From Marine Group I thaumarchaeote (GTDB taxonomy: Archaea; Thermoproteota; Nitrososphaeria; Nitrososphaerales; Nitrosopumilaceae), in assembly GCA_013390905.1 (NCBI GenBank), contig JACATG010000002.1:1-64000 (forward strand): DNA of 64,000 nt, written 5' to 3'. The position numbers and the translations under genes are program-made. This document shows positions 1,197-5,767 of the stretch, one piece after another (position 1 is the first letter of the stretch; the number at the start of each line of letters is the position of its first letter). Under the pieces are notes generated by a model that saw only the letters and a program-made list of their open reading frames with translations, was not told where the DNA came from and did no database searches.

Positions 1197-2768
1197 CTAT
1201 TCGTTGACGTATGCTCTTTCGCCGTGCTGTGCCAAATCAATGCCAATCTCCTCTTCTTTAGGAGTGACTCTGATTCCGCCTGGCCAGATGGCATCCATAA
1301 TCTTGAAGATTATAATGGTAACACCAAAGGAGTAACCCACTGATATTGCAGCACCGATAATGCTGATTGCTTGCTGTTCCATTCCTTCTGGTGTACCAGT
1401 CCATGCGCCAATACCGTCTCCAGTATCCCAAACGTGTGGACTAGCTAATGTACCAGTCAAAATTGCACCTGTAAGACCGCCGATTCCATGTACTCCCCAT
1501 ACATCTAATGCGTCGTCCCATTTGCGTGCATTCTTGAATGCTATAGCACCATAACAAAGTGTACCAGCAGCTATACCGATTATAATCGAAGCCATTGGAC
1601 CTACCCAACCTGAAGCTGGAGTGATTGCTACCAATCCTGCTACTGCACCTGTTGCAGCTCCAACAATACTTGGTTTTCCGGTATGTGCCCATGACATCAA
1701 CAGCCATGTAACTGAAGCCATACCAGTTGCGGTATTAGTGACAGTCCATGCGCTTATGGTAATGCCGTCTACCATTACTTCACTTCCTGCGTTGAAACCA
1801 AACCAACCAAACCAAAGTATGGATGCACCAAGTACAACCATTGGAACGTTGTGTGGTTCCATTGGAACTTTGCCATATCCAAGTCTTCTGCCAAGGACTA
1901 AGGCTCCTGCCAATGCAGCGAATCCTGAAGTAATGTGTACTACAGTACCACCAGCAAAGTCTAATGCGTATGATGGCGATAAGTCTGGATCAAGGTCTAG
2001 TGAACCTCCTCCTATGTAACCACCTCCCCAAACCCAATGTGCTATTGGGTCGTAAACGAAGGTACCCCATATGAGTACGAATATGATCAATGCGCTGAAT
2101 TTGATTCTGTCAATCAAGCCACCAACAATTAGTGCTGGGGTGATAATTGCGAATGTTGCTTGGAACATTGCAAATAGTTGGTGAGGTACTGTACCTGGCC
2201 AACCTTGACTACAAACATCTCCATCTTTGAACTGTTGCATCTGATATGCATTAGACCATGTGTCTGCACATGGTCCTGCTTCACCTAATGGTGCCCATGC
2301 TGAGACTTGATTAAATCCAACATAGGTCAAATCTCCCATGAACATATTTTGTCCAGTTTCAATATCTGCGCCTGGTCCAAATGCTAGTGTGTATCCCCAT
2401 AGAACCCATTGTACTGACATTAGGCCTATAACAATAAAGACCATGCCAATAGTGTTTACTGCATTCTTTGATCTGGATAAACCTCCATAAAAGAATGCAA
2501 CGCCGGGAGTCATGAAGAGTACTAATGATGTTGCTGTTAGCATCCATGCCATATCACCTGTATCTACCATACAAGGGAGCATGCCGCCATCGCCATCATC
2601 AAACCAACATTCGTTTGGGTTACCAGTGTAAATTCCACTGGTTCCCACTACATATCCGTCCATACCATCATCAACACTTTGTGCATATGCCATAGACATT
2701 GCACTAGTTGCTGTGATTGATACTGCGGCTACAAGTAATAGAGCATACTTGTAGTTTCTAGAAATCAT
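1197..2768 (-). CDS. amt: Ammonium transporter (Amt/MEP/Rh family)
   Basis: The protein (523 aa from the chosen ATG) has a cleavable signal sequence ending near AYAQ, a short acidic extracellular segment with two cysteines, then about 11 membrane helices. Family landmarks are FFYGGLSRSKN, the first pore histidine in GGTVVHITSGFAALAG and the second in WGVHGIGGLTGAI. It imports ammonium/ammonia, the energy substrate of these archaea. An in-frame ATG 42 nt further upstream exists, but the inner start at 2768 sits about 22 nt downstream of a TATA-like CTTAAATC, fitting a leaderless mRNA, and begins directly with the signal peptide. Confidence 0.95.
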   Translation of the reverse strand: MISRNYKYALLLVAAVSITATSAMSMAYAQSVDDGMDGYVVGTSGIYTGNPNECWFDDGDGGMLPCMVDTGDMAWMLTATSLVLFMTPGVAFFYGGLSRSKNAVNTIGMVFIVIGLMSVQWVLWGYTLAFGPGADIETGQNMFMGDLTYVGFNQVSAWAPLGEAGPCADTWSNAYQMQQFKDGDVCSQGWPGTVPHQLFAMFQATFAIITPALIVGGLIDRIKFSALIIFVLIWGTFVYDPIAHWVWGGGYIGGGSLDLDPDLSPSYALDFAGGTVVHITSGFAALAGALVLGRRLGYGKVPMEPHNVPMVVLGASILWFGWFGFNAGSEVMVDGITISAWTVTNTATGMASVTWLLMSWAHTGKPSIVGAATGAVAGLVAITPASGWVGPMASIIIGIAAGTLCYGAIAFKNARKWDDALDVWGVHGIGGLTGAILTGTLASPHVWDTGDGIGAWTGTPEGMEQQAISIIGAAISVGYSFGVTIIIFKIMDAIWPGGIRVTPKEEEIGIDLAQHGERAYVNE

Positions 2769-2790
2769 TAAATTTATCGAAATTGGAGAA

Positions 2791-2798
2791 GATTTAAG
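2791..2798 (-). promoter_or_regulatory. TATA box of amt
   Basis: CTTAAATC on the minus strand lies 22 nt before the amt ATG at 2768. This spacing puts the transcription start at or next to the start codon, the usual leaderless arrangement in this lineage, and supports the shorter amt start. Confidence 0.5.
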
Positions 2799-2894
2799 GC
2801 TTGAAAACACTAGAATTTGTAAAAAAGTAAATTATTATATTTCAGTATATTCTGATAGTAACATAAAATATGAAAATTAGGTCAAGGATAAAAA

Positions 2895-3625: not shown

Positions 3626-4660
3626 ATGGGTGGATCTAAAAATGTCTATGCGTCTGTAAAATCCTATAGTAAAAGAGGAAAGTTACTAAAAAAAGCTGAT
3701 TTTCAAACACTAGCAGAATCAAGAGATCTTGATGAATTAATGACTAGAATTAAAAATACAGTTTATGGAGAGGCAGTAGCTGAAGTAGAGAAACCGTACA
3801 CGTCTCTGGGTATCGAGTCTGCACTAAAAAGTCACCTAGCTGATATTCATTATACCATTGCAAAAACTGCTGGTGAGTCACGTATCTTGGATGCTTATTA
3901 TTTGAAATTTATTATTTCTAATTTAAAACAAATTCTAAAAGGAAAAGTTTTGGGAAAATCACAGGAAGAGATTGAAACTCACATTAATCTTCATGCTGAA
4001 GAATTAATCAAACAAAGAGATATTGTAGTCAAAGCACTTGTCGCAAAAGATTTGGAAGAAACTGTTGCAAGTTTAAGCCAAGTTGAATTTGGTGAAGAGA
4101 TTGCAAAAGCAGCTGCTTTGTATGCAGATAAAAAGAATATCCAAATCTTTGATACATATTTTGATAAAATTTTGTATTTACGTCTTGTAAAGGCACTTAA
4201 ATCTGGAGACATAGATGCAAGTAGATTAATTGGAATGGATATTGATTTTTACAACATTCTAAGTGTAATTAGAGGAAAGTTTTGGGGACTTGATGAACAA
4301 CAAATTCAGGATTTAATTGTAATTCAATCTCCAGCTGCAAAAGAATTGCTAGCAAGAATGATATCATCTGAATCAATAAGAGATGCATTTAGCGAACTTG
4401 CTAATACAAAATATAAGGATTTGGTTCCTCAAAATGAAAATGAATTAGATGCAATAGCTGAATTTGAAAGATCCTTTGAAATAGCAATTTATCAAGCATC
4501 GTTAAACTCTTTTACAAAAATGTTCAGTTTAGCAACTACAGTAGGAATTACAAAACTAACTGCATTTGAAGTAAGAAATCTTGCAGCAATTGCTTATGCA
4601 GTTGAACAAAAAATACCAACTGAAATTACTATGTCTAAATTGATTTTAGAGACAGAATAA
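3626..4660 (+). CDS. atpC: A/V-type ATP synthase subunit C
   Basis: The 344-aa, all-helical protein has the N-terminal pattern of the family (YASVKSYSKRGKLLKKADFQTLAESRDLDEL) and the repeated three-fold helical-bundle layout of archaeal subunit C / eukaryotic subunit d. In the complex it forms the funnel that links the central stalk to the membrane rotor ring. The gene is separated from atpI by about 3.4 kb including the divergent amt region, so the ATP synthase genes are not one uninterrupted operon here. The small membrane protein gene begins 13 nt after its stop. Confidence 0.9.
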   Translation: MGGSKNVYASVKSYSKRGKLLKKADFQTLAESRDLDELMTRIKNTVYGEAVAEVEKPYTSLGIESALKSHLADIHYTIAKTAGESRILDAYYLKFIISNLKQILKGKVLGKSQEEIETHINLHAEELIKQRDIVVKALVAKDLEETVASLSQVEFGEEIAKAAALYADKKNIQIFDTYFDKILYLRLVKALKSGDIDASRLIGMDIDFYNILSVIRGKFWGLDEQQIQDLIVIQSPAAKELLARMISSESIRDAFSELANTKYKDLVPQNENELDAIAEFERSFEIAIYQASLNSFTKMFSLATTVGITKLTAFEVRNLAAIAYAVEQKIPTEITMSKLILETE

Positions 4661-4673
4661 TCTGGTATAAAAA

Positions 4674-4904
4674 ATGAGCAAGTTTCCATCGAAAAAATAT
4701 GAAACGTCGATTGATATTCTTACAAATTGGGTAAGTATCTCTATGGCATTGATTTTTGCTCTACCGTCGCTAGGAGTATTTTTGGGAATTTATTATGGAA
4801 CTGGAAATCTGATTATTGGAGCAGTTTTAGGATTTGGAGTTCATTTCGTCACACTTGCATTTTCAGGCAGAATTTCAAGTTATCTAAACAAGATTATGAA
4901 TTAA
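4674..4904 (+). CDS. Small two-helix membrane protein, 76 aa
   Basis: The product has a short basic N-terminus (MSKFPSKKYE), a membrane helix around residues 20-42, a glycine-rich turn (YYGTGNLIIGA) and a second helix to about residue 63. No catalytic residues are seen. It directly follows atpC and precedes the Cas4-like gene by 32 nt on the same strand, so it is probably co-transcribed with both. A role near the ATP synthase is possible from position only. Confidence 0.65.
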   Translation: MSKFPSKKYETSIDILTNWVSISMALIFALPSLGVFLGIYYGTGNLIIGAVLGFGVHFVTLAFSGRISSYLNKIMN

Positions 4905-4936: not shown

Positions 4937-5584
4937 ATGATGGGAGATAGAGATTTTCGAAGTATTACTCATAATGCAATACGTTCTATAGGAAATGAAT
5001 TAGAAATTGACATAGATTCTAAGGATATTCAAACTATTCATCTTCAAGAAGTAACCCAATGTCTAAGACGCTCATATTATGATAGAATGGACCCTAATGA
5101 AATTGAAAGAAGAGGATTCAATGAACTTCTCTCAGGATTACTAAGAAAATTACAATATGGAACCGAACCAAAAGAATTTGCAATGGACGAAATTAAGCTA
5201 AAGGCACAGGTCGATATGATAACAGATGACTCTATTCTTTTATTCAGATCAGCATTATATGAGTTAGAAAACCCTCAAGCAAATGATATCCTATATCTTA
5301 ATGCATGTATGTGGATATATGACAAAGTTGATGGAGTAATTGTTTACATTACAGGAGATAAGAGAGAAATAACTTTTTCATTAACACGCAACAAAAAGAT
5401 GTTTGAGGAAATAATCAGAAGAGTTAGAGTTCTAAATGATCTTCTTAAAGAACAAAAAACACCCATCCTAGAACCATCATCTGATTGTTCTGGTTGTCAA
5501 TATTTTGAAAGATGTTTCATGAAAAAGAAGACTAGTAAACAGATATCCTTAATGGGAATATTTGGTAAGGAAAGTAAAGATTAG
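4937..5584 (+). CDS. Cas4/RecB-like PD-(D/E)XK nuclease with Fe-S cysteines
   Basis: The 215-aa protein carries the four-cysteine signature of Cas4/AddB-type nucleases: one Cys early (C42 in EVTQCLRRSYYD) and three near the end (C184, C187, C193 in CSGCQYFERC), which in the family hold a [4Fe-4S] cluster. Between them are a motif-II-like acidic residue (KAQVDMI), YELENPQ, and an LxLNACMWIY helix resembling the QhxxY motif. The usual D...ExK motif is weak (YELE without lysine), so activity is uncertain. No cas genes or CRISPR array are in the window, so this is a stand-alone member, perhaps for DNA repair. Confidence 0.7.
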   Translation: MMGDRDFRSITHNAIRSIGNELEIDIDSKDIQTIHLQEVTQCLRRSYYDRMDPNEIERRGFNELLSGLLRKLQYGTEPKEFAMDEIKLKAQVDMITDDSILLFRSALYELENPQANDILYLNACMWIYDKVDGVIVYITGDKREITFSLTRNKKMFEEIIRRVRVLNDLLKEQKTPILEPSSDCSGCQYFERCFMKKKTSKQISLMGIFGKESKD

Positions 5585-5624: not shown

Positions 5625-5735
5625 TTATTCTACTGGTTCTGGATGTCCTTTACCACGTAGAGCGAAACACACTACTGCGAGTGCAATTGCGACTCCAACT
5701 GCTGAGCCAAATGCTGCTAAACCTGCTTCTGCCAT
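5625..5735 (-). CDS. 36-aa single-helix membrane protein with strong promoter
   Basis: The frame begins with MAEAGLAAFGSAVGV, has one small-residue-rich transmembrane helix (about residues 5-26), then a basic turn (RGKG) and an acidic tail ending HPEPVE. A near-consensus TATA box, TTATAAAAG, lies 23 nt before the ATG, so the mRNA would be leaderless and well expressed. Gly/Ala spacing along the helix resembles helix-packing motifs, as in rotor-ring proteolipids, but there is no second helix and no carboxylate. The function is unknown. The ORF stands alone between two convergent or divergent neighbours. Confidence 0.65.
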   Translation of the reverse strand: MAEAGLAAFGSAVGVAIALAVVCFALRGKGHPEPVE

Positions 5736-5758
5736 TTGATAAAAAACGACTTTACGGG

Positions 5759-5767
5759 CTTTTATAA
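5759..5767 (-). promoter_or_regulatory. Strong TATA box for the 36-aa membrane protein
   Basis: TTATAAAAG on the minus strand, 23 nt before the ATG at 5735, is among the best archaeal TATA matches in the window. It argues that the tiny downstream frame is a real, strongly transcribed gene. Confidence 0.6.

Follow-up and report, generated by a model that had tools for sequence, protein, structure and literature searches.

The microprotein gene and its neighborhood

The 64,000-nucleotide stretch of thaumarchaeal DNA analyzed here (the window) carries on its minus strand, at positions 5735 to 5625, an open reading frame with an ATG start and a TAA stop whose 36-residue product is MAEAGLAAFGSAVGVAIALAVVCFALRGKGHPEPVE. 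A TATA box, TTATAAAAG, lies at 5767 to 5759 on the same strand and starts 32 bases before the ATG, the spacing typical of leaderless transcripts in archaea. The first-pass annotation of this DNA had described a single-helix membrane microprotein with small-residue packing motifs behind a TATA box at leaderless distance, and each of these elements is borne out. The AlphaFold model of the single chain has one helix, residues 2–26, with a mean pLDDT of 86.6, and the KD19 maximum of the sequence is 2.43. Both glycines of G10-xxx-G14 are invariant in 19 aligned copies, which suggests helix packing. Acidic residues occur only at positions 3, 33, and 36, the first of them before the helix, and basic residues follow the helix at positions 27, 29, and 31.

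Past the microprotein gene, which belongs to what we call type A of its family, the gene order in the window is a Cas4-like gene, tm76, atpC, a 222-aa open reading frame, and an ammonium transporter gene. The Cas4-like gene (4937 to 5584, plus strand) is tail-to-tail with the microprotein gene. The next two genes (3626 to 4904, plus strand) encode ATP synthase subunit C (atpC) and a 76-residue product with two transmembrane segments (tm76). The latter is without a Pfam or NCBIfam match, and atpC and tm76 travel together. The transporter (1197 to 2810, minus strand; start codon uncertain) is of the long, high-affinity Amt2 type and is the partner that we propose below for the microprotein.

The microprotein has no match over the curated cutoffs of Pfam (best DUF5665, 14 bits against a cutoff of 27) or NCBIfam (best the PsbN model, 11.7 against 70). 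Among solved structures the best match to the microprotein profile has an E-value of 0.085; AmoA matched no archaeal AMO there. Several other identities were considered and rejected. An RNA gene does not account for the locus, as a tRNA is the sole match in the window to Rfam at gathering thresholds. The A-type ATP synthase proteolipid (subunit K) is a two-helix hairpin with a membrane carboxylate, whereas the microprotein has one helix and no match to that family. A viral origin was set aside because 47 pattern matches in viral contigs included no relatives.

Conservation of peptide and promoter

By itself, neither a TATA box nor a hydrophobic short reading frame is unusual. The window contains one TTATAAAAG against 2.9 matches expected, and a TATA-like string lies upstream of two of the nine reading frames of 30–60 residues in the window that have a strongly hydrophobic stretch. 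What exceeds chance is conservation. A single-sequence search found the microprotein in 35 of 61 genomes, comprising 35 of the 37 from the same genus and none of the 24 from other families, and the best same-genus copies are 80–100% identical. The two same-genus genomes with no match, G012 and G029, are 85 and 63% complete, respectively. From 155 confirmed loci with named relatives, whose titles include Nitrosopumilus, Nitrosarchaeum, Nitrosopelagicus, Cenarchaeum, and Nitrosotenuis, 80 were kept; the orthologous set of 73 excludes L129 and L130, in which the 5′ end is cut, and keeps five paralogous loci apart. Over the first 33 codons of 60 distinct sequences from the orthologous loci and the window, dN/dS is ∼0.14 (ratio of means; 1701 pairs with finite dS), and the variable columns number 14, 10, and 31 of 33 at the three codon positions. 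Because the gene is conserved across same-genus genomes under purifying selection, we regard it as real and not as a chance reading frame.

The promoter is conserved along with the peptide, a check that had been proposed for this gene at first pass. Exact TTATAAAAG is present in 42 of the 73 orthologous loci, at −32 every time, and the remaining 31 have TATA-like strings around the same place, as judged by eye. AmoA and an amo cluster are found in the same genome, in keeping with the description of the locus as a conserved-promoter membrane microprotein gene of an ammonia oxidizer.

Additional paralogues lie at dispersed sites and differ in promoter and tail, with four copies in G022. Some (L043 at G000:C17:18210, L035, and L038–L042 are among the paralogues) have longer acidic or His-rich tails; the window's own genome has a 59-aa paralogue, and G036 has a 53-aa copy with several histidines. 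Some paralogues lie near Lrp-like and TFB-like genes, and one paralogous copy, L044 (G018:C4:142837), is broken by a stop and looks decayed.

Range of the family

More distant copies were located starting from the Cas4-like gene. Short one-span reading frames lie tail-to-tail with it in three f8 genomes (G119, G125, and G140) and one f2 genome (G037), and the gene beside them is the short Cas4-like form in these four of the five distant genomes; in the fifth, G188, the Cas4-like gene is at a contig edge. We take G119 to be N. viennensis and G037 to be N. cavascurensis. Similarity was tested with profile A1, built from 19 Nitrosopumilaceae copies including paralogues, against 500 shuffles that kept composition. 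The real score against A1 was reached by 0–1 of 500 shuffles for four of five Nitrososphaera forms (the fifth, in G092, is weak, with 12 of 500) and by 2 of 500 for the Nitrosocaldus forms. For a second subtype, type B, it was reached by 1–7 of 500, and hhalign of A1 against the type B profile, A3, gives a probability of 54.9 and an E-value of 1.2e-4. Type B is thus a probable relative of type A, with moderate sequence support plus common gene neighbors. Homology of the most divergent members is putative and draws in part on shared gene neighbors.

Once the distant copies had been added, the resulting profile, A2, matched 165 of the order's 300 genomes at E ≤ 1e-3 and 186 at the looser E ≤ 0.1. 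Profile A3 matched 26 genomes at E ≤ 1e-3, the majority from g25 and g28, and types A and B combined reach 176 of the 300 at that threshold. Genus labels are provisional here: g8 is Nitrosocosmicus-type, g49 is Nitrososphaera-type, and g25/g28 are Nitrosotalea-like, the last from gene order and from NDEV numbers in excerpts of PMC4836417.

AmoA was found in 190 of the 300 genomes; 164 have both AmoA and the microprotein, 26 have AmoA alone, 12 have the microprotein alone, and 98 have neither. All 12 genomes with the microprotein alone come from AmoA-bearing families, and no match at E ≤ 1e-3 was obtained outside those families (f1, f2, f3, and f8). Values above this threshold were scored as misses, the best in families without AmoA being 0.0011 in f10 and 0.0077 in f4, and so were matches in G171, G233, and G301; G171 and G233, with E-values just above threshold (0.002 and 0.006), are therefore counted among the 26 AmoA-positive non-carriers. 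Fourteen of the 26 belong to g8 and five to g42. Among the genomes searched, the profile matches at E ≤ 1e-3 have so far been found only in the families of ammonia-oxidizing archaea (AOA), to which the microprotein family appears to be confined. We found no description of the family in the literature at the level of titles and the starts of abstracts.

The Cas4-like gene and atpC as neighbors

The Cas4-like gene adjoins the microprotein gene in 75 of the 80 named loci, the other five being paralogous copies, and a second paralogue pair joins type B with a 260-aa Cas4-like form. At E ≤ 1e-15, a Cas4-like profile matches 171 of the 300 genomes, and every one of these belongs to f1, f2, f3, or f8. 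The two genes also share their phyletic range: among AmoA-positive genomes, 158 have both, six the microprotein alone, none the Cas4-like gene alone, and 26 neither, and among all 300 the corresponding numbers are 170, six, one, and 123. G264 and G276 have the microprotein and no Cas4-like match. In the Cas4-like alignment, the four cysteines are kept in nine of nine rows, and no canonical E-x-K is seen at the place where the Cas4 nuclease motif is expected, so the product may be an Fe-S protein that is not a nuclease. The ∼215-aa form (as in the window, 4937–5584, plus strand) and the ∼250-aa form (L147:1435-2181) are perhaps non-nuclease Fe-S regulators.

The atpC gene lies ∼1 kb from the microprotein gene in the window and in most named loci. 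Neither atpC nor tm76 was detected in the sequence fetched for L107, L116, L129, and L132, and L091 has its atpC ∼5.6 kb away; in all five the microprotein and Cas4-like genes stay together. Since these loci keep the microprotein without an adjacent atpC, the two are separable, with the caveat that the genomes may hold atpC elsewhere. These five loci may also have another ATPase type or arrangement.

Association with Amt2-type transporters

The Pfam Amt family was searched in 50 genomes, and a tree was built from 51 Amt proteins of 50 loci plus that of the window; the long branches L220, L221, and L231 are of unsure placement. The Amt2 clade has 30 rows (support 100/99) and the Amt1 clade 16. 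Within Amt2, group Amt2a has 10 Nitrosopumilaceae rows, the window included, and three f2 rows; Amt2b has the six g25/g28 genomes, G057, and G037; and Amt2c has nine f8 rows. Excerpts of PMC12254950 indicate that some authors swap the names Amt1 and Amt2.

Amt2 content could be decided for 44 AOA genomes (32 by the tree and 12 by frame length alone; G105 and G147 are undecided). All 33 Amt2-positive genomes have the microprotein, and 10 of the 11 Amt2-negative genomes are without it, which is the co-occurrence expected of an accessory of the transporter. The sole Amt2-negative carrier, G038, is a 130-contig assembly with an Amt1-type transporter only. The 10 non-carriers (seven from g8, two from g42, and one from g57) are the AmoA-positive genomes without the microprotein that were searched for Amt, and each has a single Amt of Amt1 type. 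This finding indicates Amt2 at least as much as AMO. As the AmoA-positive absences are clustered in a few genera (g8 and g42), they may reflect one or a few losses, and their independence is overstated by Fisher values. Nitrosocosmicus is described in part of PMC12254950 as having only a low-affinity Amt.

Proximity of the genes follows the transporter subtype. A type B gene is found no more than 4.5 kb from Amt2b in eight of eight rows, which span three families (G037, G057, and the six g25/g28 genomes); in the six g25/g28 genomes the two genes are head-to-head with 127–195 bp between start codons. Type A is within ∼4.5 kb of Amt2a in nine of the 10 Nitrosopumilaceae rows, the exception being a second Amt2 in G217. 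The distance in this family is 3–4.5 kb, and the Cas4-like gene is nearer and more constant. Next to the three f2 (Nitrosocaldaceae-type) Amt2a genes, a copy convergent to the transporter was read directly at 0.85–0.98 kb, with weak profile E-values in two cases (0.012 and 0.048). No microprotein was found near the 16 Amt1 rows or adjoining the nine Nitrososphaera-type Amt2c genes by a proximity filter that also overlooked the three f2 copies beside Amt2a. A motif search for PII genes near Amt had no match anywhere and is thus uninformative.

Association with the amo genes

In all six g25/g28 genomes the pair of type B and Amt2b sits between amoYZ and amoB; in five of them the contig continues with amoC, amoX, and amoA, and in G211 it ends. 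The N. devanaterra numbering in excerpts of PMC4836417, with amt2 as NDEV_1784 and amoA as NDEV_1777, fits the arrangement in G123. In g49, a microprotein copy lies downstream of amoA in all six neighborhoods read, with a gap of ∼93–121 bp in G119, G122, G140, and G125 and of ∼0.7–1.0 kb in G092 and G131. In the window's genome, the microprotein gene is not in the amo cluster, and separate genes fit AmoX, AmoY, and AmoZ, as assigned by gene order and by the description in excerpts of PMC10030591.

A subunit of AMO would be expected in every AMO-bearing genome, and the microprotein is present in 164 of the 190 AmoA-positive genomes. The g8 genomes G043, G077, and G085, each a single contig and AmoA-positive, have no match, and three g8 neighborhoods and one g42 neighborhood of amoA contain no candidate at the amino-acid level.

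Two side observations concern amo regions. Both the window's genome and g25/g28 genomes retain a 175-aa membrane-like open reading frame (L197:2119-2646, minus strand; MIWPGMGDP...) that separates amoYZ from amoB or from the Cas4-like gene. The microprotein match L171 (G038:C73:257-367) adjoins a ribosomal-protein-like reading frame that flanks amoZ in the window's genome, and L171 may lie in the amo region of G038, an f3 genome.

By gene counting, the amoA-adjacent copy of G119 is probably NVIE_027260, with an uncertainty of one or two genes. The count starts at a COX2 gene assumed to be NVIE_027520 and works back over 22 predicted genes and two clear genes in a gap until it reaches amoA. Between NVIE_027520 and the gene presumed to be NVIE_027550 it comes out one gene short, and the gene finder used missed the microprotein itself. 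The neighbors predicted for NVIE_027260 by this count are a radical SAM protein and amoA. In Table 1 of Hodgskiss et al. 2023 (PMC10030591), NVIE_027260 appears as an unknown protein exclusive to AOA, and on native gels it co-migrates with AmoA, AmoB, and AmoC6. The same table has amt co-migrating with AmoA and AmoB in N. cavascurensis and has S-layer, complex I, and complex IV proteins co-migrating with AMO as well. By way of the gene counting, the co-migration of NVIE_027260 would support an AMO association, and if NVIE_027260 is indeed MADAMSTYAITIG..., published co-migration data already apply to the microprotein family. In Table 1 NVIE_027260 lacks the mark "conserved in extant AOA"; it was perhaps not taken further because short divergent proteins easily fail such a conservation filter. 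A small-ORF scan (L163) found no family member near the estimated place in G119 of NVIE_013530, a top-expressed, co-migrating protein.

Weighing the explanations

Our preferred reading, which we hold tentatively and at a little under an even chance, is that the microprotein is an AOA-specific one-span accessory of the ammonia uptake and use machinery, with Amt2 as its likeliest direct partner and AMO as the second. The evidence against a partnership with Amt2 is the set of Amt2c genes without a copy, the draft genome G038, the steadier Cas4-like neighbor, the clustering of the absences, and the scattered paralogues. The microprotein could instead be a further small AMO subunit like AmoX, AmoY, or AmoZ that fills transmembrane positions missing in archaeal AMO, the linkage to Amt2 then being mere co-location of ammonia genes. 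Its AOA-only range, its place downstream of amoA in the six g49 genomes, the position of type B between amoYZ and amoB in g25/g28 (with amoA on the same contig in five), and the co-migration of the probable g49-type copy, NVIE_027260, with AmoABC in Table 1 of PMC10030591 all fit such a subunit. We nevertheless consider it unlikely given the 26 AmoA-positive non-carriers, the single-contig G043, G077, and G085 included, the three g8 and one g42 surroundings of amoA in which no copy was found, and the location outside the amo cluster in the window's genome. A linker that couples Amt2 to AMO in a membrane "metabolon," where ammonium delivered by Amt2 would be handled next to the enzyme, would draw on both associations. 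Such a linker would account for the placement of copies next to Amt2 or next to amoA depending on the lineage, for the position of type B and Amt2b between amoYZ and amoB in g25/g28, for the lack of the microprotein in genomes without Amt2, and for the finding in Table 1 of PMC10030591 that amt of N. cavascurensis co-migrates with AmoA and AmoB. We rate this linker as rather improbable.

Other explanations place the partner elsewhere or do without one. As the most constant neighbor (75 of 80 named loci, four of five distant genomes, and the second paralogue pair) with the same phyletic range, the Cas4-like protein could be what the microprotein anchors to the membrane or antagonizes, with the transporter link secondary. 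This is improbable: the genes are mostly convergent and hence not co-transcribed, contig breaks in drafts remove both at once and so inflate the match in range, and the microprotein occurs in G264 and G276 with no Cas4-like match. A free membrane peptide of stress or signaling, with no fixed partner and with neighborhoods that are relics of ancestral gene order, would suit the paralogues scattered with other promoters and tails (four copies in G022, the 59-aa one in the window's genome); we find it distinctly unlikely because, across the order, the microprotein is absent together with Amt2 and the Cas4-like gene, and because its pairing with Amt2b in three families is specific to the subtype. 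The suggestion at first pass was an accessory subunit of an energy-converting complex, to be sought by co-purification with ATP synthase or AMO. An accessory role stands as plausible and AMO as a possible partner, but the ATP synthase part is weakened by the five loci in which the microprotein has no adjacent atpC and tm76 (L091 carries atpC elsewhere). We judge an accessory of ATP synthase or the respiratory chain very improbable, despite atpC being 1 kb off in the window and near in most named loci and despite the complex I and IV proteins listed with AMO in Table 1 of PMC10030591, as the microprotein has one helix only and no Pfam or NCBIfam match to such a subunit.

Proposed role and comparison with known systems

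For the preferred accessory of Amt2, a topology can be predicted from the positive-inside rule. The basic residues after the helix and the acidic residue before it suggest that the N terminus would be outside and the basic RGKGHPEPLD tail in the cytosol. The small-residue face of the helix (G10xxxG14) would pack against the Amt2 trimer, and the tail may modulate Amt2 or provide a place for another protein to dock, possibly the Cas4-like product of the tail-to-tail gene. This topology, the putative binding to Amt2, and any effect on transport are inferred. AOA live at very low ammonium. The microprotein family, present in all four AmoA-bearing families searched, is a concrete candidate for a missing component in the relation between Amt2 uptake and AMO oxidation and may be an overlooked part of ammonia uptake and use in AOA.

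Three kinds of small protein invite comparison. One short helix with a charged tail, as in the microprotein, is also the build of KdpF-, AcrZ-, and CydX-type peptides, which stabilize or tune a large membrane protein; their partners are different, and no related model matched the microprotein. AmoX, AmoY, and AmoZ, as described in excerpts of PMC10030591, are like it in being AOA-only, small, helical, and amo-linked in some lineages, whereas the microprotein is shorter, has no match in g8 (Nitrosocosmicus-type), and follows Amt2. Compared by description, a counterpart in role would be sP36 of Methanosarcina mazei, a 61-aa protein that binds and regulates AmtB1, with homologues named in Methanosarcinia, Halobacteria, and some bacteria but AOA not among the groups listed (excerpts of PMC10714827). 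According to that source, sP36 lacks a transmembrane helix and shuttles between the cytosol and the membrane, whereas the microprotein is a one-span membrane protein; both are tiny archaeal proteins tied to an ammonium transporter, and the precedent of sP36, as far as those excerpts describe it, indicates that regulation of Amt proteins by very small proteins does occur in archaea.
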